This document shows, one piece after another, positions 8,036 through 59,684 of a DNA stretch of 64,000 nt. The position numbers and the translations under genes are program-made. The stretch lies in NCBI GenBank assembly GCA_024277195.1, contig JAJRVS010000222.1, positions 1 through 64,000 of the forward strand, in the 5' to 3' direction. Numbering within the stretch: position 1 is the first letter of the stretch; every line of letters begins with the position of its first letter. Under the pieces are notes generated by a model. It did no database searches, had not been told where the DNA came from, and worked only from the letters and a program-made list of their open reading frames with translations. The stretch comes from Verrucomicrobiota bacterium. Lineage in GTDB: Bacteria > Verrucomicrobiota > Verrucomicrobiia > Verrucomicrobiales > DEV007.

Positions 8036-8946
8036 TCCCACGCCGCCCAACTAAAGAGCAACACCAACGGCAGATAAGCCAGGGTATAAAAAAACAAGGC
8101 GCGCGCTTTTTCCCGCGTCCTGACTTTGCGGAATACCAAAGCATACTTAAGCATCACTGCTCCCAAAAACACCCCCGGAATCAAAAACCACCCATGCGCC
8201 TCCCCGCTCAACACCGGCATGATCGGAATCACCACCGTGAAAAGCGAAAATATAATCGCCAGTCGTGAGGTCTTCGAGCCGTCATCGTCATCATTCGACC
8301 ACATCACAAAACCACCCTGCACGTATTGATCCCGGTACATCCAATTGATCGCCAGAAAATGCGGCATCTGCCAAAAAAACAACAAGGCAAACAAATACGC
8401 CCCGCCCAAAGTCAAAGTTCCACCGGCAGCCGTCCAACCGATCAAAGGAGGTAAAGCTCCCGCCACCGCTCCGATCACCGTATTCCAAGTCGAGCGCGTC
8501 TTCATCGGAGTGTAAATGAACAAGTAAGTCAACAGCGTCACCGCGGCAAAAACTGCAGCTAGGAAATCCACCTTCATCGCCAGGTGCACCACCCCGAAAG
8601 CCGAAAACAACCAGCCCATGACAAAAGCCGCCGCCGTCGAAACCCGGCGGGTCGGCAAAGGCCGGTCAGCAGTCCTATCCATCTTCGCATCCGCCTCCAA
8701 CTCCATCACTTGGTTAAAAGCCGCCGCGCCAAATGCGGTGAGCAAAGTACCGAAAATCGTATGCCCCAAAATCCACCAAGAAAAAGAATCATGCGAACGC
8801 GCCGCCAGCAAATAGCCAAACAAAGTAGTCATCACCACCAAGGCGCTCAAGCGCGCCTTGGTTAGCGTCATCAAATCCGCACGCCAACCCACCGCCGCAG
8901 ATTCCTCCGCGCTCTCAACTTCATCTGTAATCTCCCGACCAGCCAT
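8032..8946 (-). CDS. ctaB: Protoheme IX farnesyltransferase (haem O synthase)
   Basis: A 304-residue UbiA-family prenyltransferase that attaches a farnesyl group to haem b, giving haem O. The first Asp-rich motif is NQVMELEADAKMDRTADRPLP (about residues 95-115), with a second polar loop at YRDQYVQGGFVMWSNDDDDGS. Eight or nine transmembrane helices fill the rest. The ATG at 8946 is preferred over the adjacent GTG at 8949. It lies downstream of ctaA and upstream of SCO1, the classic order for aa3 oxidase haem A supply. Confidence 0.95.
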   Translation of the reverse strand: MAGREITDEVESAEESAAVGWRADLMTLTKARLSALVVMTTLFGYLLAARSHDSFSWWILGHTIFGTLLTAFGAAAFNQVMELEADAKMDRTADRPLPTRRVSTAAAFVMGWLFSAFGVVHLAMKVDFLAAVFAAVTLLTYLFIYTPMKTRSTWNTVIGAVAGALPPLIGWTAAGGTLTLGGAYLFALLFFWQMPHFLAINWMYRDQYVQGGFVMWSNDDDDGSKTSRLAIIFSLFTVVIPIMPVLSGEAHGWFLIPGVFLGAVMLKYALVFRKVRTREKARALFFYTLAYLPLVLLFSWAAWE

Positions 8947-47656: not shown

Positions 47657-48772
47657 TCACCCCTGCAGGGCCACACTCGGCGTCAGGCGCGAGCTCCTCC
47701 AAGCTGGATATAAACCACTGACCACACCCACCAATACCGCGATCATCACTGCACGTGACATCAGTGTCCATGAAAGATCGGGTTCCAGCAAGCCGTGAAT
47801 CGCGGGTGTCATCTCAAGGATCGCACAAGTGAGCACTCCCAGAATCACCCCAATCACACCTCCCAGCAAACCCAGTATCGCAGATTCACACAATATCAGG
47901 TAAACAATGCGGCGACGTTTCCAGCCCAGAGCGAGAAAAATACCGATCTCATGGGTGCGTTCAAAAACCGTCATCAACATGGTATTCATCACTCCCAGAA
48001 CCCCGACAATGATCGCCAACAGCGAAGTGCTCCAACTCATCGCCCGGGCAATTTTAAAACCCTGACTTGTGCCCACCACTTCTTTTGCCATCACCGCACG
48101 CCCCTCGGGGAAAACTTTCTGGATTTTATCACACAAAGCCTGGGTCGCCTCCTTATCGACTTCCGACGGCACTTGAATATCAATGAAATTCACCATGCCC
48201 TCATAACCACTCACCTCCTGAAACAACGGCAAAGCCAGGATCACCGCCCCATTCTCCACCACCGATTTGCCATCGACAATCCCCACCACTTCAAAATCCT
48301 CAATCTCAACTGTCACCGTATCCCCCACCTTTTTTTTCAAAACCTCCGCGGCAAGACGCCCCAGCACCACCACTCGTTCCTTTTCATCCTTGGGCATACG
48401 ACCTTCCACCACCGTCAATTGATCCCAGGTGAAGCCTCCCCATTCACGCCCAGATACCATCATCATCGGCGCATCCTCGACACTGATCATACGCATCAAG
48501 ACGCTGGTGATCTTCTTCACATTCGGAAAGCCCCTGATCTCATCCTGAAGCTTGGCATCAAAAGGTTTTGGCATCATGCCGCCCTCCATATTACTGACAA
48601 TCACATCAATACCGAGCACTTCGAGCTGTTTGACTACGCTTTTTTCATAACCCGATGCCATACCCACCAAGGCCACCACCGCGGCAATTCCGATGGCGAT
48701 ACCCACAAGAGTTAAACTGGTGCGCACCGGACGGCGCCAAAGACTACGAGTAACAATAGTTAAAAAATTCAT
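47657..48772 (-). CDS. MacB/LolE-like ABC transporter permease
   Basis: 371 residues with FtsX/MacB topology: helix 1 (about 20-40), a large periplasmic domain (about 45-245) with MMMVSGREWGGFTWDQLTVVEGRMPKDEKERVVVLGRLAAE, then three C-terminal helices and the FtsX motif GVMNTMLMTVFERTHEIGIFLALGWKRRRI. It starts 5 bp downstream of its ATPase. Such exporters use mechanotransmission to move lipids, lipoproteins or small molecules. Being next to the PKS cluster, it may export its product, but LolCDE-type lipoprotein sorting is an equal option. Confidence 0.9.
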   Translation of the reverse strand: MNFLTIVTRSLWRRPVRTSLTLVGIAIGIAAVVALVGMASGYEKSVVKQLEVLGIDVIVSNMEGGMMPKPFDAKLQDEIRGFPNVKKITSVLMRMISVEDAPMMMVSGREWGGFTWDQLTVVEGRMPKDEKERVVVLGRLAAEVLKKKVGDTVTVEIEDFEVVGIVDGKSVVENGAVILALPLFQEVSGYEGMVNFIDIQVPSEVDKEATQALCDKIQKVFPEGRAVMAKEVVGTSQGFKIARAMSWSTSLLAIIVGVLGVMNTMLMTVFERTHEIGIFLALGWKRRRIVYLILCESAILGLLGGVIGVILGVLTCAILEMTPAIHGLLEPDLSWTLMSRAVMIAVLVGVVSGLYPAWRSSRLTPSVALQG

Positions 48773-48777
48773 AATCC

Positions 48778-49497
48778 TTATGCGCTGGTTTCTTCGACGG
48801 AATTATTATCAGAAACAATCAATCCATCCTTCATTTTTATCACTCGTTTGGCATGACCCGCGACCTCCAAATCATGCGTCACCATCACCATGGTCGTTTT
48901 TCTCTCCTCGTGAAGTTTGTCCAAAAGTTCCATGATCTGCACCGCGTTTTTGCTATCCAGATTACCCGTCGGTTCATCCGCCAGCAATACCGCTGGCTCG
49001 TTCGCCAAACTGCGTGCGATCGCCGCCCGTTGGCGTTCTCCACCTGAGAGTTTCAAGGGCAAGTGATCACAGCGATGGGAAAGCCCCACATCATCCAGCA
49101 ATTTAACCGCTCGCTCACGGCGTTCTGTGCGCGACCAGGGCATACCGAACATCGGAATCTGGACATTTTCCACTACGGTGAAAGTCGGCAACAAGTGAAA
49201 CGATTGAAAAATAAACCCAATCTCACGCGCCCGGTAAGCAGCGGGATCCGGCAAATCGAGAATCGATTGCCCTCGGAACAGCAAACTGCCCGTGGTCAAA
49301 TGATCCAAAGTTCCCAGCATATTAAGCAGAGTACTTTTACCACATCCACTCTGACCGATAATGGCTACAAAATCCCCTTCTTCAATCTTGAAATTGACCC
49401 CCCGCAATGCCGGAACCCGTCCGTCATCGTACTCTTTTTTCAGTTCAATGGCCTCAAAAAGGAGGGCATTGGCATCAGATGGGCTGGCAGAACTCAT
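48778..49497 (-). CDS. MacB/LolD-like ABC transporter ATP-binding protein
   Basis: 239 residues. Walker A GQSGCGKSTLLNMLGTLD (about 43-60), signature LSGGERQRAAIARSLA, Walker B VLLADEPTGNLDSKNAVQ and the H-loop VTHD are complete. The GxLxF(R)G spacing and DEPTGNLDS are typical of the MacB/LolD group. It is the ATPase for the permease at 47657-48772 and starts 66 bp downstream of the desaturase. Confidence 0.94.
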   Translation of the reverse strand: MSSASPSDANALLFEAIELKKEYDDGRVPALRGVNFKIEEGDFVAIIGQSGCGKSTLLNMLGTLDHLTTGSLLFRGQSILDLPDPAAYRAREIGFIFQSFHLLPTFTVVENVQIPMFGMPWSRTERRERAVKLLDDVGLSHRCDHLPLKLSGGERQRAAIARSLANEPAVLLADEPTGNLDSKNAVQIMELLDKLHEERKTTMVMVTHDLEVAGHAKRVIKMKDGLIVSDNNSVEETSA

Positions 49498-49563
49498 GGG
49501 TTTTTATCAAATCTTGAATCAAGGCGAAAGTGTAGCCGAAGCTTGGGGAAATCACAAACTCTA

Positions 49564-50520
49564 TCAATCCCCACTGGTTTCAACCGTTTTCCACTGACTG
49601 CCCACTTTAGGGTCAGGCAGTTGACGGATCAAATGCGCAATAGCCGCGTGATAACTCGCATAGGGCTGGGTATCCCCCTCTTCTTCCGGAGCCAGCCAAT
49701 CGGTGTGCTCGGGCATTTCCGAATAGTGCATTTTGCCATTGATGTGATGAACCCCGTGAAAAGGCTCATGCAACAAAGAAAGCGAAATCAATTTTCCCAC
49801 CCAGGTATCAGTGACGATGCTGCGGGTGCCGCTGCGTGCCGTATTACCACTCAGGCCGACATGCTCGATGTATTTGCGCCAACTCTGCATATTCCCCGTG
49901 ATATAGGCCGGGATGAGATAGTTCCAGAAAAACCAGGGCCACAACTGGTAATGAGCCACCAAGGTGAAAGCCACCGTCCAGAATACCACGATCAAAGCCA
50001 GTTCCTTCCAGATTCGACGCCTGATTTTAGGATTGCGAATTTCCGTATCACGATGGAAAAACGCCCGCCAAAATAGAAAAGGAGTGAAAGCCAAGCCAAA
50101 GTTCAACTCGATAAAAGCAACCAAACGCCGTTTCCATAAAGGCGCACCGGGATCATTAAAAGGCCACAATTCCACATCCCGCTGAGTGGCAAAATGCACA
50201 TGATGTGACTGATGCAACATGCGGTAGAGCGTAAAACTGTTGTAACTGATCGTGCCCATCAGCACGCCATTGAAGTCATTCAAAAAACGATTCTTCCGGT
50301 AACCCCAATGAGTCGCTTCATGAAAGCCAATGAGATAACCATGCATCAAATGACTGACCACTAAAACCAGGGGAATAGAAAGCCAAAGCCAGCCCCGGTA
50401 AACACTGTAAGCCAGCAGAGCCTGACCGAGATAAAAAAGAATATTAACGACCGGGATGGCGGTGCGATTAACCCACGATCCCCACGGAGTATAAGTGACT
50501 TGGCTGTTCTGCTCGCTCAT
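49564..50520 (-). CDS. Membrane fatty acid desaturase-family protein
   Basis: 318 residues with about four transmembrane helices and the three His boxes of the membrane desaturase/hydroxylase superfamily: HEATHWG (HxxxH), HQSHHVH (HxxHH) and HGVHHIN (HxxHH). The di-iron centre they build introduces a double bond or hydroxyl group into a lipid chain. It directly follows the condensation-domain gene of the PKS cluster (24 bp), so a lipid or polyketide tail is a likely substrate; this is inference. Confidence 0.85.
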   Translation of the reverse strand: MSEQNSQVTYTPWGSWVNRTAIPVVNILFYLGQALLAYSVYRGWLWLSIPLVLVVSHLMHGYLIGFHEATHWGYRKNRFLNDFNGVLMGTISYNSFTLYRMLHQSHHVHFATQRDVELWPFNDPGAPLWKRRLVAFIELNFGLAFTPFLFWRAFFHRDTEIRNPKIRRRIWKELALIVVFWTVAFTLVAHYQLWPWFFWNYLIPAYITGNMQSWRKYIEHVGLSGNTARSGTRSIVTDTWVGKLISLSLLHEPFHGVHHINGKMHYSEMPEHTDWLAPEEEGDTQPYASYHAAIAHLIRQLPDPKVGSQWKTVETSGD

Positions 50521-50544
50521 TCGCTTCCGACTTTAAAAGAATCA

Positions 50545-51930
50545 TCAGACCTTCATTGCCGCTGGACTGATTTTCGGTTGTTCACAGACGCTTGTCAATA
50601 CCTCGTGAAACAGTTGGTTCAGTTCCTTCACCTCATCCAAAGATACCACCGATTCCCGGTGCAGCCACACCACCTCGAATCCCCCATTGTCTTCGGTCAA
50701 TTCGCAGGCCAGATCAAAACGTGCGGTGCCAGTGGAAATCACCCTGACCCGGGTCGAAATACCCGGCAAGGAAACTTCCGGCATCGGGTGGTTCTGGTAA
50801 GCAAAACGGGTATCAAATACGCAGTGCTGATCTGCTGATTTGGGTTCACCCACAGCCGCTGCCAGTTCGGCAAAAGGGATGGCGTGCTCAAAAGCATCCA
50901 TCGTCTGTTCATGCACCACCTTTGCCCGGTCGGCAAAAGCTTGCTCAGGATCGATCTTGCCGCGCAAGGGCACGACTCCCGAAAAATAGCCCATCGTTTC
51001 ACGCACTGCAGTCTTGGTTCGATTGGCCACCGGTGTCCCCAATACAATGTCATCGACCCCGGTCCGCTTGAAAAGTGTCAGTTGGAAAGCCGCCAGCAAG
51101 ACGTTAAAAACCGTCACCCCCAACTGGCGAGCCAGGTCACGAACCTTATCTGCCTGTTCTTCGGACATTTCCGCGACCCAACGCTGCAGCCGCTCACTCT
51201 TGTCCCCTTGTTTTCCTGCGTCCCCCCACAACAACTTTGATCCCGCCAGGCGGACTTTCCAAAAGTCCGTATGTTTGGCAATCTCTTCAGGTTTCCACTG
51301 GGCACGCTCAACCGCTCCCCATTCGCTATGGGTCATCGCCAGCGGAGTCAGGGAATCACGAATGCCCTTAATCTTTCCCAAATCCATTCCCGATTCACGC
51401 AAACCCAGAATGTAAGCCGTGCACAAATCTTCAACAAACGCACCCAGCGTCCATCCGTCCCCCACGCTGTGGTGAACCGTAAAAGCCAAAACCAAATCCT
51501 CCGGACCACGTTGCAGGATATCCATGCGGTAAAGCGGTCCGTTCAAAAAATCGAAAGGTTTAAAAAAACCTTCAGCCATCACCGCTTCGATGGCTCCGGG
51601 TTTGGCCTCCTCTTCACTCAACTCACGAAAGCTCACAGCAGGTTCCCCCCCAGCTGCTCGAATAATCTGCAGTGGGCGTTCCTTGCCAGGCAAAAAAGAG
51701 GTGCGCATGGCCTCCTGCCGCTCGACCACCTTACCCACCGCCGCTTTGATCTGCTCAACCGTGGCCGGTCCTTTGACTTCAAAAAACGAACAGATGTGAT
51801 TGGCCGGATCACTCGGTTTGACCGGTGAGGTCTCCCAAATCTCGCGTTGGGAAAAAGTCAAAGGTTGCAGGCGGGCTTTTCCGCTCGCCAGCATTTCCTT
51901 CAACCGTGATAAGGCATTGTTTTTTTCCAT
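50545..51930 (-). CDS. Stand-alone condensation-domain protein
   Basis: 461 residues with a free NRPS-type condensation domain. The catalytic motif is FTVHHSVGDGWT (HHxxxDG, His about residue 155), preceded by the N-terminal FSQREIWE and followed by the DDIVLGTPVANRTKTAVRETMGYFSGVVPLRG segment that forms the donor/acceptor tunnel. Such enzymes join an acyl or peptidyl donor on a carrier protein to an amine or alcohol. A basic N-terminal helix (MEKNNALSRLKEMLASGKARL) could be a docking element for the acidic ACP tail. It starts 14 bp downstream of the ACP frame. Confidence 0.88.
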   Translation of the reverse strand: MEKNNALSRLKEMLASGKARLQPLTFSQREIWETSPVKPSDPANHICSFFEVKGPATVEQIKAAVGKVVERQEAMRTSFLPGKERPLQIIRAAGGEPAVSFRELSEEEAKPGAIEAVMAEGFFKPFDFLNGPLYRMDILQRGPEDLVLAFTVHHSVGDGWTLGAFVEDLCTAYILGLRESGMDLGKIKGIRDSLTPLAMTHSEWGAVERAQWKPEEIAKHTDFWKVRLAGSKLLWGDAGKQGDKSERLQRWVAEMSEEQADKVRDLARQLGVTVFNVLLAAFQLTLFKRTGVDDIVLGTPVANRTKTAVRETMGYFSGVVPLRGKIDPEQAFADRAKVVHEQTMDAFEHAIPFAELAAAVGEPKSADQHCVFDTRFAYQNHPMPEVSLPGISTRVRVISTGTARFDLACELTEDNGGFEVVWLHRESVVSLDEVKELNQLFHEVLTSVCEQPKISPAAMKV

Positions 51931-51944
51931 CCGCTCTGTTCCGT

Positions 51945-52337
51945 CTAGCTCGCCGATGCTGCCGTTTCCGGCTCCGCTTCATCTTCCGAAGCGCTATCAA
52001 GCAAACCGTCCAAATCCGCATCCGACAGAGCATCCAAATCAACTTCGTCCAAGGACAACTCTTCTTCAACCGGAGCCACTGCTTCAGCCGGAGCCGTCGC
52101 GCTGCTTTCTCCACCAAGATGGCCGTAGATCAATGTCGCAATCTGGCCAATGGTGCGGGCACGCATCAGGCTGGTCGGTGGTAAAGTCACCCCGATGGAA
52201 CTTTCGATCAAAGTCTCGATTTCCACCCCCATCAACGAATCCAGACCGAGGTCAGTCAGCGGTTGATCTTCACGCAAAGTTTCAGGTTTGACTCGTAGAA
52301 CCGAACCAACGATGTCCTGAACCGCCTTGCAAACCAC
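51945..52337 (-). CDS. Acyl carrier protein continuing the PKS reading frame
   Basis: About 130 residues. The carrier domain has the phosphopantetheine site LGLDSLMGVEI (Ser at about residue 35) in a PKS-type context (TDLGLDSLM, LPPTSLMRARTIGQIATLI). An acidic tail of about 45 residues (LSLDEVDLDALSDADLDGLL) follows. The frame is exactly that of the PKS at 52347-59684, separated only by one TAA at 52347-52349; between that TAA and the first usable start, GTG at 52337, the frame reads REA, and the linker REAVVCKAVQDIVGSVL is what normally joins a KR to its ACP. So it is either a re-initiated gene or a PKS interrupted by a nonsense codon. Confidence 0.85.
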   Translation of the reverse strand: MVCKAVQDIVGSVLRVKPETLREDQPLTDLGLDSLMGVEIETLIESSIGVTLPPTSLMRARTIGQIATLIYGHLGGESSATAPAEAVAPVEEELSLDEVDLDALSDADLDGLLDSASEDEAEPETAASAS

Positions 52338-52346
52338 CGCTTCACG

Positions 52347-55300
52347 TTAGTCAGGATCAGCCGATTCGATCTTCACCCGCCAATCACCTGCGCCACTTGA
52401 AGACTCATCCGCTTCCACTCCGCCAGCGAAGATTCGCTCGAGCAAAGGGTTCTCCTGCATGCTGCGGAAAGACTTACGCCACTTGGCCCAATCCACCCGA
52501 ATCGCAGCGGCCTGCGCCACATCGGCATCCAGAAAAGCCTCAAGCAGACCGGTCACCTCGTTGGGTTCGATCGACGAAGTGCCTTGTTTTTCCAAAAACT
52601 CAGCTACTTTTTCATTTCGAGCGACATAACCTTCACCACCGAGAACACCCCAGTTGACGCCCAAAGAAGGCAAACCAAGAGAATGACGGTGATGAGTCAG
52701 CGCATCGATGAAAGCATTAGCCGCAGAGTAGTTACCCTGCGCCGGATTTCCGAAAATACTCGAAATCGATGAGAACATCACAAACGCATCCAAATCCATT
52801 TTCGCCGTGCCTTCGTGCAACAACCAGGCACCGAGTGCCTTCGGCTCCATCACCGCTTTCATGCGATCAGCATTCAGATCACCCAACGGCGCATCGTCGA
52901 TCACCATCGCCAAATGGAACACACCTTTCAGCGGACGGCCGGTAGCTTCGACTTCTTTGAAGATGCCTTTCACACTTTCAGCAGAGCCCACATCGGCAGC
53001 CACTGCCAGAGTCTCCACTCCCAGCTCCTTGAGCTCGGCGATGAATTCGGGTGCGCCCTTGGTCGCCGCACCTTGTCGACTGGTCAGGGTCAAGTGACGC
53101 GCACCGGATTCAACCAGCCACTTCGCCAATACCCGACCAAAACCGCCAAAACCACCGGTAATCAGATAGGTCGCTTCAGCACTAACGGTGAAGTCCTTAT
53201 GCAGAGCTTCTCCCACTCGATGAACAAAAGGGTCAGCAAAAGCGATCACCACCTTACCAATATGTTTGCCCGCAGCCATCAATCTGAAAGCGGCATCAAC
53301 TCGACAAGCGGGGAAGGTGCGGAAAGGCAAGGCGGTCAAAGCCCCCTCTTTCACCAAATCCACCACCTCTTTCAGCAACTCGCGGGTGAGATCCTCGTCT
53401 CCAGCAAAAATCGCATCCATGGCGATCACGTGGAAAGAAGCATTGCGACGCAATGAGAATAAAGGCAATTTCGAATTCTGATAAATATCACGTTTACCGA
53501 TTTCGATGAAACGTCCGGATTCGGCGAGACAGGACAAGCCCATCGGAATAGCCTCGGCTGCCAGTGCGTTGAGCACCACATCCACTCCTCGACGGTTGGT
53601 CAACTCCATCACCTGCTCGGCAAAGTCACCCTTACGTGAATCAATCACCTCGGCCACACCGAGCGTCTTCAGCATGTCGCGTTTGACCGCACTACCGGCA
53701 GAAGCGATCACATTGGCTCCCAAATGGTGCGCAATCTGAATAGCCGCCATGCCCACTCCGCCTGCTCCGGCATGAACCAAAATCCATTCACCTTTACGCA
53801 AACGCGCAGCGTGTTTCAAAGCATGCCAGGAAGTCATGAACACCACCGGCAAGGTAGCCGCCTCCTCATGTGTCACTCCCTCTGGAATAAGCGTCACATC
53901 AGCCGCGCGGGCCAAAGTGTGCGTAGCCAGACCAAAAACAGCCAAACCAAAAACCTGGTCACCTACTGCGACACTGTCCACCCCTTCGCCAATCGCGACC
54001 ACCTCACCAGCCACCTCATCTCCATACATCCGGGCATCAGCCGTTTCAGCAGGATAAAGTGCCAGCGCTTTAAGCACATCACGGAAGTTCATACCCGCTG
54101 CTTTAACCTTGATCAAAACCTCGCCCGCGGCACATTCTTCATTAGCAAAAGCAGTGAACTTCAAACTGTCGAGGATACCACGCTCACGGGATTCCAAACG
54201 CAAGGACACGTCGGGTGGCAAAATTTTCTCATCAATAGCCAGACCTCTGGTCAAGCGCTGCGAATACCTCGCTTCACCACGCAGAGCCACCTCTCGATCG
54301 GTGTTAGGGCTACGCAACTCAGCCAACAACACTTCTGCATCATCAGCCGAAACATGGGTAGGCAAATCAACTCCCTGACAAGGAATGTTAGGATGTTCAC
54401 TGAGAACCACCCGGAACAAACCAATCGCCGGTCCCTGGCTCACCGTCACCGGACCTTGATCGCGTCCTGCAGGCTGTCCCCCACGGGTGATGTGATCCAC
54501 ACGACAACCGCCGGTTGGATAAAATTGATCCAAAGCATGGGAAAAATGCAACATGGAATCAGTGCCAATCAACGCATCCTTACCATCCTCGGCAATTTTC
54601 TCGTCAATCGTCCACATATAAACAAACCGCTGTGGTCGATCCTCGGCAGTCCATGATTCGAACAACTTTGTCCAATCTTCCGGATTTTTCGGATTCATCT
54701 CAAAAGCCCCCTCGCCTTTGTCCGCGAAAGCCCCTGCCTGGGTCACCACCCGGCACTCTTTGCCTTCGGATTTCAGGTTTTGTGCGAGACTCGCGCCCAC
54801 CCCTTCTTCGTCGGCGAATATCACCCATGAGCTTGCCTCCGGCTCTTCTGGTGTCTCCACCGCTTCAGTTTCTTCACCCTCCTCCGTTTCCTCGGAAGGT
54901 TTCTTAGCAATGCGAACAGGCGCTTTGCCATCCCAGGCTTTACGCCCCATGATGCCAACCTGTCCCTCGCCACCTTCCGGCCCCAGCAAGCCGGGCAATG
55001 TGGTGACTTCTTCAAATCCAGAATTTTCCAGAACTTTTGCCCAGGTTTCACGCGAAATCAAAGGCTGGTCGGGACGAAGGTCGCGGTCAGTGAAACTCCA
55101 CCAGCCACTGGTCAAACCAAATGTCATTTCCGTCCACAACTGCGGTGTCGCCAAATCCATGAACAACAAGGTGCCGCCTGGAGCCAACATCTCATGCAGG
55201 TTTTTCACACTCTCCGTCACATCCGCCACCGCGTGCAATACATTGGTGCCGACAATAAAATCAAAAGGCCCCTCATCAAACCCCTGCTCTTCAGGCGTTT

Positions 55301-58300
55301 TTTCAAGGTTGAACGCTTTATACTCGACCTCTGGGAAAGCCGCCAGTTTCTGCTGCGCCGGCAGGAAGAAACCTGCCGAAACGTCGGTAAATATATAGCT
55401 GTGAAGATTGCGTTCCAGCTGAGGCAAAATGTATGCCGCCAAACCACCGGTTCCCGCACCCACTTCAAGAATACGCAAACCACGTCCTTCCGGAAGACGG
55501 CGCGCAGCTTCCTGCACCCCGGCAGCCATACCGGTCATCCAGTGACTGGAAAACAAACCATCACCATAAAACTGCTCCAACAAGTCAGCACCAGGACCTC
55601 CGAAAAGAACTTGCACCGCGTCTTTTTCACCCGTCAGGATCGGACCGAAATCCGCTCCGGTGGTGGCACAGATCATCCCCTCCGGCAAATGCCCAGGATG
55701 ATTGATCAGGAAACTTTTCAATGCCGCTTCGGAGGATTGGGCAGCTTCATCAAAAGCAGGCAAAGCCGTCCAGCCTTCTCCGGCAGCTTCAACCAATCCG
55801 CGTTTGGCCAGCTTGTCCATCAGACGCTTGAACACCGGACGCATCAACTCGGTGACCTTGAGTGAATCAGCGGAAAATGTTGCTGCCGTTTTGGCGTTAA
55901 CCCCCATCTCACGCATACCATTGGCGATCTGTGCCGCAGCCAGAACATCCTCCTCCGCCATCACCTTGATCAACTTGTCACGACCGCGCATGTCCAGCAC
56001 TTCATTGAGTGCGGTCTCCACGGTTTTACTCAAATCTTGCAACGGCATGGACTCCAGGGCTTTGGGCTGGGCCGCCGCATCCGAACGTTCCCAATCCACA
56101 TGGTAAACCACATCGCGTCCACCACCGGAAGCTCCCGAACGCCTAACCGAACTCATCGCCACGGCGCGGAAACCGTCAACCAGCACACAAGGGCTACCCG
56201 ACTCATCATACAAGCCAATCCGGCCTTCGATCAGTTCTTCGTTGCAGGTCAAAACCTCGGCCCGCACCCGACTGGTCGCACCCGGAGATTTGACATACAA
56301 AATACGATCAAAACGAACCGGCAGTTTCATCCCCGCCTTGCGATCCTCAATGGTTTGTGCTCCAGCAGAAAAGACGTGCAACGCCCCGTCCAGAATAACT
56401 GGGTGCAAGGCATATTCACCAACACGTTTGGCGCTGGCTTCGGACATCTTCACCACTCCGGACGACTTGCCATTACTGGCATTCAACTCTTTGACCGGCT
56501 TGAACTCGTCGCCGTATCGCAAACCGAGGTTCGCCATGTATTCGTAAAATTCATCTGCAGGAACCGATGCCAGATCATCCCCCGGAGCTTCCCAATCAGA
56601 CTCCGTGAAGGAGGACTCCACCCGCTCCGAGCGCAGGTAACCCACCACATGGACGGACCATGTGTCCGAAGGCTCAAAACAACTCTGAATCAAAAACGTG
56701 CGCTCATTCGGATCATAACTCAGCTCCAGAATCAACCCCACCGGCGGATCGGACATGATCAAAGGCTTGCGAATATCCAAACCTTCGATCGCAAAAGGAC
56801 GACCTTCAAAAATCTCGATCCCGGCTTCCAGAACCATGTCGATAAAAGCAGCCGCAGGGAAAACCACATGGCTGTCCACTTTATGATCACGAAGATAAGC
56901 CATGTGACGCTCATCGAGACGAGTGGTCCAGGTAGGCGTCGCACGTGGCGTGCGGGTATCAAGCAAACCTTTGCCACCGGGAGCCAGACGACTGTCGCGC
57001 AGCTCTCCAGCTTCATGCCACCAACGCTCCATATTCCAGGCATAAGTCGGCAGAGTCAGCAAATGACGCGATGGCGTCATCGCCGCAAAATCCATCACCA
57101 CACCCAAACGATGCAGTTCGAGAGCGGCTTCGAGAGCCGAAGCATACTCGCGCTCACGACGAGCCGAGGCTACCACCGTCGATTTGTTCTCACTATCAGC
57201 AAGGCACTCCTTGATCGAAATCGCCAAAGCCGGATGAGCGCTGATCTCCAGCCACACATCCACTCCAAACTCATCCACAGCTCCTACCGCAGAAACAAAT
57301 TGCACCGGTTGGCGAATGCCTCGCGCCCAGTGATTAGCGGTGACGTCTTTGCCGTCACAACGCTCTCCGGTCACCGTGCTAAAAAATGGCACCGTTTCTT
57401 CCTGCGGAGTGAAATCTGCCAGCGCTTTTTCCAAAGCATCAGCGGCAGGTTGCATCAAAGCGTGATGGAAAGGATGATCCACTTTCACAAAACGCGCAAA
57501 AATCTCTTCAGCTTCCAGCTCTTCCTGAATCAGTTTCAGAGCCGCTTCCGGTCCGGACAAAGTCAAAGATTGCGGGCCGTTGAAAGCGGCAATGCTCACC
57601 GAAGCGTCGTGCTTGTTGATCAATTCCTCCGCTTTCTCCTTAGTGACCGCTATCGCCAACATCGTGCCTTCTCCACGCGCACACTCATTCATCAACTGTG
57701 CCCGCAGCACGATCACCCGCGCGCCTTCTTCCATCGTCAAAATTCCTGCCAGGCAGGCCGCGGCAATTTCGCCCACACTGTGACCGGTGATCGCAGCAGG
57801 TTGAACCCCCCACGATTTCCACAACTCACACAGCGCATACTGCATCGCAAAAATAGCTGGCTGACCAATCGCCGTTTGTTTCAAACGGGAGTCTTCCTCA
57901 TCGCGTGCCAATTCCTCAAGCAGCGAAAACTGTGCATGAGGGTCCATCGCCGCCGCACAAGCTTCCATCGCCTCGCGAAATACCGGCTCGCTCGCCATCA
58001 GTTCCCGTCCCATGCCCCACCACTGAGGCCCCTGACCACTCATGATAAAACCCACTCGAACCGGATGTTCCGGTGCCGGAGTAAACGAATCACGCAAAGT
58101 GGTGCCGTTTTCCTCTTCGACGTGAGCACGCAGCTCCTCCACCAACTCGGCCGCCGAAGTGACCACTGCCGTCAGGCGATACGCGTGTTGGTTACGTCGT
58201 GCCCCCAGCGTGAACACCAGGTCACCCAATAAAGTATCACTTCCCTCACTCACATCCTGGGCTTCCACCCAGTCAGCCAGACCACTCGCCGCCGCTTTCA

Positions 58301-59684
58301 GCGACTCTTCCGAACGAGCAGAAAGCATCACCGGCCAAGATTTGGCCGATTTCTCAGAAGCTTTGCGTTTGGTCTCCTGAGCCGGAGGCTGTTCCAGAAT
58401 GATGTGCGCATTCGCCCCACCAAAACCAAAAGAGTTGATTCCCACCAGACGCGGTCCGTCACCATTGGTTTTAGGAAAATCCTCGGTTTCAACCGGCACC
58501 CGCAGTTTGCACTCGTCAAAATCGATGTGCTCACTGGGTTTCTCGAAATGCAAACTCGGCGGAATCTGTCCGCGCTCGACCACCAAAGCCGCCTTGATCA
58601 GACCCGCTACACCCGCAGCCGTCTCCAAGTGTCCCAGGTTGGATTTGACCGAACCAATCGCCAATGGTTCATCAGCAGAACGATCCTCACACAAAGCACC
58701 TGCCAAAGCATGAGCCTCGATCGGATCCCCCACTGCCGTTCCTGTGCCGTGAGCTTCAACGTAACCGATAGTGCTCGGATCAACCCCCGCATCCTTACAG
58801 GCATCTTTCACCAAGCGTCGTTGCGCGTCTTCACCGGGCAGTGAAATCCCGTTGGTGTGACCGTCCTGGTTGGTCGAAGTACCACTGATCACCGCATAAA
58901 TCTGATCTCCGTCAGCGACGGCTTTGGAAAGCGGTTTCAATAAAACCATGCCCGCACCTTCACCACGCACAAAACCATTGGCCGAAGCATCAAACGCCCG
59001 GCATTGACCACTGGGCGAAAGCATTCCCGCCTGGGAAAAGCCGATAAAACCGTCCGGAGTGATCATCACCGTCACCCCACCGGCCAAAGCCATGTCGCAG
59101 CGACCTTTCAAAAGTTCCTCACAAGCCGCGTGCGTCGCACTGAGCGCCGACGAACAAGCCGTATCCATAGCGATACTTGGTCCAATCAGGTTCAAGCAAT
59201 ATGAAATCCGGTTGGCCGCGATACTGTGCGCATTTCCAGTTGGAGAATGGGGACTGATGCCCGTTCTATCCGTCGCACTTCCCTGGATGCTCTGGTAATC
59301 CGTATGTGAAATACCGGCGAACACGCCGATATTAGTGCCATTCTCAAAATCAAGTATAACCCCAGCGTCTTCGATCGCTTCATAAGCCGTCTCCAGCAAC
59401 AAACGCTGCTGCGGGTCGATATACGGAGCTTCACGCGGTGAAATTCCAAAAAATTGCGGATCAAATTGATCAATGCCTTCAATAAAGCCACCCCACTTAG
59501 CGATCGTTTTGCCAGCCAAACCAGGCTCGGCATCATAAAAACGCTCCGCATTCCAGCGATCTGAAGGCACCTCCACCACCGCATTTCCACCCTTCAGCAA
59601 AAAATCCCAGTAAGATTCCACATCATTCAGCTTGCCGGGAAAGCGGCAGCCCATTCCAATGATAGCAATTTTTTCTTTGTCCAT
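52347..59684 (-). CDS. Giant type I polyketide synthase (KS-AT-DH-MT-ER-KR)
   Basis: 2445 residues. KS (about 5-430) has DTACSSALS (Cys177), VEAHGTGT and NLGHLETAAG; AT (about 545-860) has GHSVGE (Ser636) and the HPFH specificity motif; DH (about 905-1190) has DHKVDSHVVFP (His934, with Ser where Gly is usual) and HPVILDGALH; C-methyltransferase (about 1360-1530) has EVGAGTGG; ER (about 1850-2130) has LVHAGAGGVGM; KR (about 2175-2370) has YLITGGFGGFG and GNYSAANAF. All reductive domains look intact, so a reduced, methyl-branched chain is predicted. The ACP lies beyond an in-frame TAA. The order parallels fungal highly reducing PKSs. Confidence 0.95.
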   Translation of the reverse strand: MDKEKIAIIGMGCRFPGKLNDVESYWDFLLKGGNAVVEVPSDRWNAERFYDAEPGLAGKTIAKWGGFIEGIDQFDPQFFGISPREAPYIDPQQRLLLETAYEAIEDAGVILDFENGTNIGVFAGISHTDYQSIQGSATDRTGISPHSPTGNAHSIAANRISYCLNLIGPSIAMDTACSSALSATHAACEELLKGRCDMALAGGVTVMITPDGFIGFSQAGMLSPSGQCRAFDASANGFVRGEGAGMVLLKPLSKAVADGDQIYAVISGTSTNQDGHTNGISLPGEDAQRRLVKDACKDAGVDPSTIGYVEAHGTGTAVGDPIEAHALAGALCEDRSADEPLAIGSVKSNLGHLETAAGVAGLIKAALVVERGQIPPSLHFEKPSEHIDFDECKLRVPVETEDFPKTNGDGPRLVGINSFGFGGANAHIILEQPPAQETKRKASEKSAKSWPVMLSARSEESLKAAASGLADWVEAQDVSEGSDTLLGDLVFTLGARRNQHAYRLTAVVTSAAELVEELRAHVEEENGTTLRDSFTPAPEHPVRVGFIMSGQGPQWWGMGRELMASEPVFREAMEACAAAMDPHAQFSLLEELARDEEDSRLKQTAIGQPAIFAMQYALCELWKSWGVQPAAITGHSVGEIAAACLAGILTMEEGARVIVLRAQLMNECARGEGTMLAIAVTKEKAEELINKHDASVSIAAFNGPQSLTLSGPEAALKLIQEELEAEEIFARFVKVDHPFHHALMQPAADALEKALADFTPQEETVPFFSTVTGERCDGKDVTANHWARGIRQPVQFVSAVGAVDEFGVDVWLEISAHPALAISIKECLADSENKSTVVASARREREYASALEAALELHRLGVVMDFAAMTPSRHLLTLPTYAWNMERWWHEAGELRDSRLAPGGKGLLDTRTPRATPTWTTRLDERHMAYLRDHKVDSHVVFPAAAFIDMVLEAGIEIFEGRPFAIEGLDIRKPLIMSDPPVGLILELSYDPNERTFLIQSCFEPSDTWSVHVVGYLRSERVESSFTESDWEAPGDDLASVPADEFYEYMANLGLRYGDEFKPVKELNASNGKSSGVVKMSEASAKRVGEYALHPVILDGALHVFSAGAQTIEDRKAGMKLPVRFDRILYVKSPGATSRVRAEVLTCNEELIEGRIGLYDESGSPCVLVDGFRAVAMSSVRRSGASGGGRDVVYHVDWERSDAAAQPKALESMPLQDLSKTVETALNEVLDMRGRDKLIKVMAEEDVLAAAQIANGMREMGVNAKTAATFSADSLKVTELMRPVFKRLMDKLAKRGLVEAAGEGWTALPAFDEAAQSSEAALKSFLINHPGHLPEGMICATTGADFGPILTGEKDAVQVLFGGPGADLLEQFYGDGLFSSHWMTGMAAGVQEAARRLPEGRGLRILEVGAGTGGLAAYILPQLERNLHSYIFTDVSAGFFLPAQQKLAAFPEVEYKAFNLEKTPEEQGFDEGPFDFIVGTNVLHAVADVTESVKNLHEMLAPGGTLLFMDLATPQLWTEMTFGLTSGWWSFTDRDLRPDQPLISRETWAKVLENSGFEEVTTLPGLLGPEGGEGQVGIMGRKAWDGKAPVRIAKKPSEETEEGEETEAVETPEEPEASSWVIFADEEGVGASLAQNLKSEGKECRVVTQAGAFADKGEGAFEMNPKNPEDWTKLFESWTAEDRPQRFVYMWTIDEKIAEDGKDALIGTDSMLHFSHALDQFYPTGGCRVDHITRGGQPAGRDQGPVTVSQGPAIGLFRVVLSEHPNIPCQGVDLPTHVSADDAEVLLAELRSPNTDREVALRGEARYSQRLTRGLAIDEKILPPDVSLRLESRERGILDSLKFTAFANEECAAGEVLIKVKAAGMNFRDVLKALALYPAETADARMYGDEVAGEVVAIGEGVDSVAVGDQVFGLAVFGLATHTLARAADVTLIPEGVTHEEAATLPVVFMTSWHALKHAARLRKGEWILVHAGAGGVGMAAIQIAHHLGANVIASAGSAVKRDMLKTLGVAEVIDSRKGDFAEQVMELTNRRGVDVVLNALAAEAIPMGLSCLAESGRFIEIGKRDIYQNSKLPLFSLRRNASFHVIAMDAIFAGDEDLTRELLKEVVDLVKEGALTALPFRTFPACRVDAAFRLMAAGKHIGKVVIAFADPFVHRVGEALHKDFTVSAEATYLITGGFGGFGRVLAKWLVESGARHLTLTSRQGAATKGAPEFIAELKELGVETLAVAADVGSAESVKGIFKEVEATGRPLKGVFHLAMVIDDAPLGDLNADRMKAVMEPKALGAWLLHEGTAKMDLDAFVMFSSISSIFGNPAQGNYSAANAFIDALTHHRHSLGLPSLGVNWGVLGGEGYVARNEKVAEFLEKQGTSSIEPNEVTGLLEAFLDADVAQAAAIRVDWAKWRKSFRSMQENPLLERIFAGGVEADESSSGAGDWRVKIESADPD

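Follow-up and report, generated by a model that had tools for sequence, protein, structure and literature searches.

The TAA codon that divides a polyketide synthase (PKS) gene from its ACP in this verrucomicrobial genome is most likely not a real biological feature, and is probably an assembly or sequencing error in the metagenome consensus. The gene itself would be an ordinary single-polypeptide verrucomicrobial PKS, KS-AT-DH-MT-ER-KR-ACP, in which one base error in the metagenome-assembled contig would have turned an ancestral Glu codon into TAA, and in the living organism KR and ACP would be joined, neither split nor recoded. Caution is appropriate here, as an in-frame stop placed cleanly between two domains resembles biology, yet the same assembly also breaks valS and ftsA.

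The window, by which we mean the whole 64,000-nucleotide stretch analysed, is part of contig C154 in a verrucomicrobial genome of 5.49 Mb and 422 contigs (labelled G000), and its features around the stop are as follows.

52347..59684, minus strand: polyketide synthase ORF of 2445 aa (KS-AT-DH-MT-ER-KR), ending at the TAA
52641..53174, minus strand: KR domain (PF08659), the last one ahead of the stop, residues 2171-2348
52347..52349, minus strand: TAA codon, found in this genome only, where both congeners have GAA (Glu)
51945..52337, minus strand: ACP ORF, 130 aa, from the first in-frame GTG past the TAA; corresponds to the C-terminal end of the PKS in relatives
52128..52325, minus strand: PP-binding (ACP) domain (PF00550), with the GLDSLM phosphopantetheine site intact
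51999..52055, minus strand: conserved acidic C-terminal tail of the ACP, SLDEVDLDALSDADLDGLL

Pfam domains in the PKS ORF follow the order KS, AT, PS-DH, methyltransferase, ER (ADH) and KR, and the ORF downstream of the TAA matches PF00550 PP-binding (E 8.7e-14). The full type I PKS domain set KS-AT-DH-MT-ER-KR-ACP is thus present in order, but across two ORFs, and with the TAA in the consensus KR and ACP are not joined in one polypeptide. The preliminary description had a PKS of 2445 residues ending at the TAA (52349-52347) with the ACP in exactly the same frame, and its arithmetic is correct: 7347 bases, or 2449 codons, run from the PKS ATG to the GTG at 52337 that opens the ACP ORF, 9 nt downstream of the TAA. 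By codon usage, both sides of the TAA are coding in the PKS frame and no other frame competes. The residues after the stop, which had been said to resemble a KR-ACP linker, are indeed an ordinary one, since the congeners read the same linker (...SADADEREsVICQAVQDIVGSVLRVKP) straight through. The TAA sits within this linker and outside any homopolymer.

Comparison with relatives shows a gene of fused ancestry. It had been proposed that homologous clusters be compared at this codon, and the codon proves to be sense, GAA (Glu), in both congeners (G001 and G002, each a different species of this genus), within a conserved flanking linker, while genes of the family are fused. The window KR-ACP end is 66-86% identical to its homologues in eight genomes spanning genus, family and order, and all six outgroups at the family or order level (G014, G024, G041, G045, G048 and G051) have KR and ACP fused. 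Among 84,980 species genomes scanned, 67 PKS loci were recovered, 62 of which carry KR and ACP in one stop-free frame; a 63rd, L077, was read by tblastn, and the contigs of three others stop short of the ACP. Fusion thus holds for 63 of the 64 readable verrucomicrobial homologues, the sole exception being a draft with two frameshifts, and this rules out a conserved KR/ACP split. Among 35 aligned near-full-length PKSs the stop position is occupied by Glu in 26 and by Asp in four. With GAA in the congeners and a fused family, the ancestral PKS gene was KR-ACP fused, and the stop is private to the window genome. A break private to one assembly, in a gene intact in its relatives, is one of the marks of a spurious pseudogene, and it is seen here.

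The exceptional draft is that of Chthoniobacter flavus Ellin428 (L086), with frameshifts near 8800 and 10474, one of them near the KR-ACP linker, where a G run seems to be one base too long. We considered a convergent fission in this species and set it aside, as there are two frameshifts and an extra base in a G run is typical of draft error; both frameshifts are probably sequencing errors. An apparent frameshift in the PKS of the congener G002 proved to be a run of Ns.

Cooley and Wright (2024, PMC11017572) tied spurious pseudogenes in public bacterial assemblies to reads of low quality or to low coverage, and, as in that study, we find here scattered internal stops and frameshifts in genes that are intact in neighbours; that work drew on assemblies with metadata and reads, whereas ours draws on the consensus sequence alone. 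In a two-way comparison of a sample of the genomes, covering 1.14 Mb from G000 and 0.73 Mb from G001, using coding-like ORFs picked by codon usage and with extension artefacts upstream of start codons removed by hand, G000 has four internal stops and two one-base deletions against G001 (158 genes, 62,163 aa), while the reverse direction (176 genes, 65,717 aa) gives one internal stop and no frameshifts. The four stops fall in this PKS, in valS and in one gene each on L260 and L255, and the two frameshifts in ftsA and a gene on L150. The valS stop is a TAA at L136 7532 (G000:C38), 88 codons before the gene end, at a position that is CAA (Gln) in both congeners; it takes off the conserved C-terminal arm of what is the only full-length copy, and the only match over the family cut-off, in G000. 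The ftsA break is a one-base deletion in a T run at about 4707 of L126 (G000:C28), again in the sole G000 match over its cut-off. Cells without intact valS and ftsA are not expected to live. Part of the G000 breaks must therefore be consensus errors, and breaks in indispensable single-copy genes of the same assembly are another mark of spurious pseudogenes.

It is because of these unique breaks in valS and ftsA that we favour an error at the PKS stop as well, and we infer that this particular TAA most likely belongs among the false stops. At the break rate of G000, 0.17 stops are expected in 2579 codons, and one stop in a gene of the length of this PKS is unremarkable. Several considerations count against an error. 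The TAA lies outside any homopolymer, and a genuine break would be least damaging in a linker such as this one. The sampled breaks are few, at six events, and some may be true pseudogenes. The MAG also scores as 95.6% complete and 1.3% contaminated, and, as a gauge of contig error rate, the window PKS has six private changes at 908 near-invariant columns, compared with 25 in L085, a MAG of 1x coverage; from so few private changes the window contig does not look grossly error-ridden.

Other loci in G000 were inspected too. No break was found in alaS or in the N-terminal part of rpoB, which lies at a contig end, and rpoC was looked for and not found. A copy of secA shows a frame change between two matched stretches (G000:C189, about 1354-1360), and a codon-usage scan of G000 alone indicates that a membrane protein gene on L142 is probably interrupted by an in-frame TAG. 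A tight array of divergent, low-scoring tRNAs occupies positions 13732-15730 of L237 (G000:C68), an 18-kb contig, and is suggestive of a phage contig or a prophage in the bin.

A real and recent nonsense mutation is the second most likely explanation, though clearly less likely than an error. It would leave the PKS without its ACP, with no chain extension and the pathway off, as a young pseudogene or strain polymorphism. A single substitution separates the GAA of the congeners from TAA, and the remaining PKS ORF and the neighbouring genes are intact, as a very recent break would predict. The ACP core is highly conserved, with three to four amino-acid changes compared with 165 expected under neutrality (a count of eight private ACP changes includes an ungapped, misaligned tail past the domain), so that the stop must be unreal, or very recent, or must not abolish translation of the ACP; if the ACP has been silent, the changes seen allow this for at most some 6% of the branch that leads from the congener split. 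There is precedent in mycobacterial pks15/1, normally a single type I PKS gene, which in some strains is two adjacent ORFs, with associated loss of the lipid product (PMC7205293). The likeness lies in one type I PKS gene broken into two adjacent ORFs; the mycobacterial break, however, is a real, population-wide frameshift between the KS and the rest, whereas ours is a single nonsense codon ahead of the ACP, seen in one MAG. No second genome of the species supports the mutation. Moreover, the breaks in valS and ftsA are equally drastic, and the breaks of this assembly cannot all be tolerated mutations.

A further explanation is a recent and functional split, in which the ACP would be re-initiated at GTG 52337 and would serve the truncated PKS in trans. 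An ACP begun at this GTG has the complete domain, the GTG is itself private, the valine codon of the congeners being GTT or GTC, and the 9-nt gap falls inside the range of -8 to +10 nt in stop-start spacing that is taken as predictive of termination-reinitiation (PMC10666635); dissected iterative PKSs can also load a stand-alone ACP in trans (PMC6334511). We nevertheless consider this arrangement improbable. No Shine-Dalgarno-like sequence precedes the GTG: at +0.3 kcal/mol its site is weaker than those of 93% of internal starts that arise by chance, but many native starts in G000 lack one too, so this says little about re-initiation. Of the 187 Val codons in the PKS gene 111 are GTG, more than any other, and a random codon has an in-frame start within eight codons with P = 0.63, so that a GTG after the TAA is unremarkable. 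No relative has a split of this kind: among the readable members of the 67-locus set, none has a stop and a start at this junction, nor is there in these homologues the separate ACP with conserved start and stop that the preliminary description had named as an outcome telling against its reading, and that a naturally split PKS/ACP pair would show. It is a long shot that an iterative type I PKS has genuinely and very recently undergone fission here, one substitution having freed a re-initiated stand-alone ACP that still works with the PKS; if true, it would be a snapshot of a discrete carrier protein being born.

Programmed or suppressor-tRNA readthrough of the TAA is the explanation to which we give least credence, and we regard it as extremely improbable. 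The frame is intact on either side of the TAA, and a further in-frame TAA occurs in valS of G000, but the G000 breaks mix TAG, TAA and frameshifts, and TAA is a common normal terminator in G000, ending 122 of about 351 coding-like ORFs. A suppressor tRNA is absent among the roughly 50 tRNAs found in this 95.6% complete MAG, none of which has a TTA, CTA or TCA anticodon, and no relative has a stop here, hence no evolved recoding signal is expected. The preliminary description had offered four explanations, of which nonsense mutation and sequencing error stand, while readthrough finds no support and the split has no sequence feature in its favour.

Apart from the stop, this PKS is normal for the widespread verrucomicrobial family to which it belongs, and its neighbours on the same strand are conserved.

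50545..51930, minus strand: free-standing condensation-domain protein (PF00668), the next gene, intact
49564..50520, minus strand: fatty acid desaturase (PF00487), conserved neighbour
47657..49497, minus strand: ABC exporter pair, conserved neighbours
48778-49497, minus strand: LolD/MacB-like ATPase of the exporter pair
47657-48772, minus strand: MacB/LolC-like permease of the exporter pair

The cluster of PKS, condensation protein, desaturase, LolD/MacB-like ATPase and permease is seen at 47657-59684 of the window and in loci L022-L085, and its order and strand are kept in most loci with enough flank. Verrucomicrobial KS-AT-DH-MT-ER-KR-ACP PKS clusters share with the window their domain order, ACP tail and gene neighbourhood; their PKSs, where readable and with the exception of one draft, have no break, whereas that of the window has a TAA before the ACP. 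No match to a characterised member of this verrucomicrobial PKS family or cluster was found in this analysis. If the break were real, a conserved and apparently unstudied verrucomicrobial lipid cluster would have undergone either a loss specific to this lineage or the beginnings of a PKS split. The product appears to be a methyl-branched lipid with its own dedicated machinery for synthesis and export. The acidic ACP tail, EVDLDALSDxDLDxLL, is present in nearly all relatives, and the condensation protein encoded by the next gene may dock onto it.
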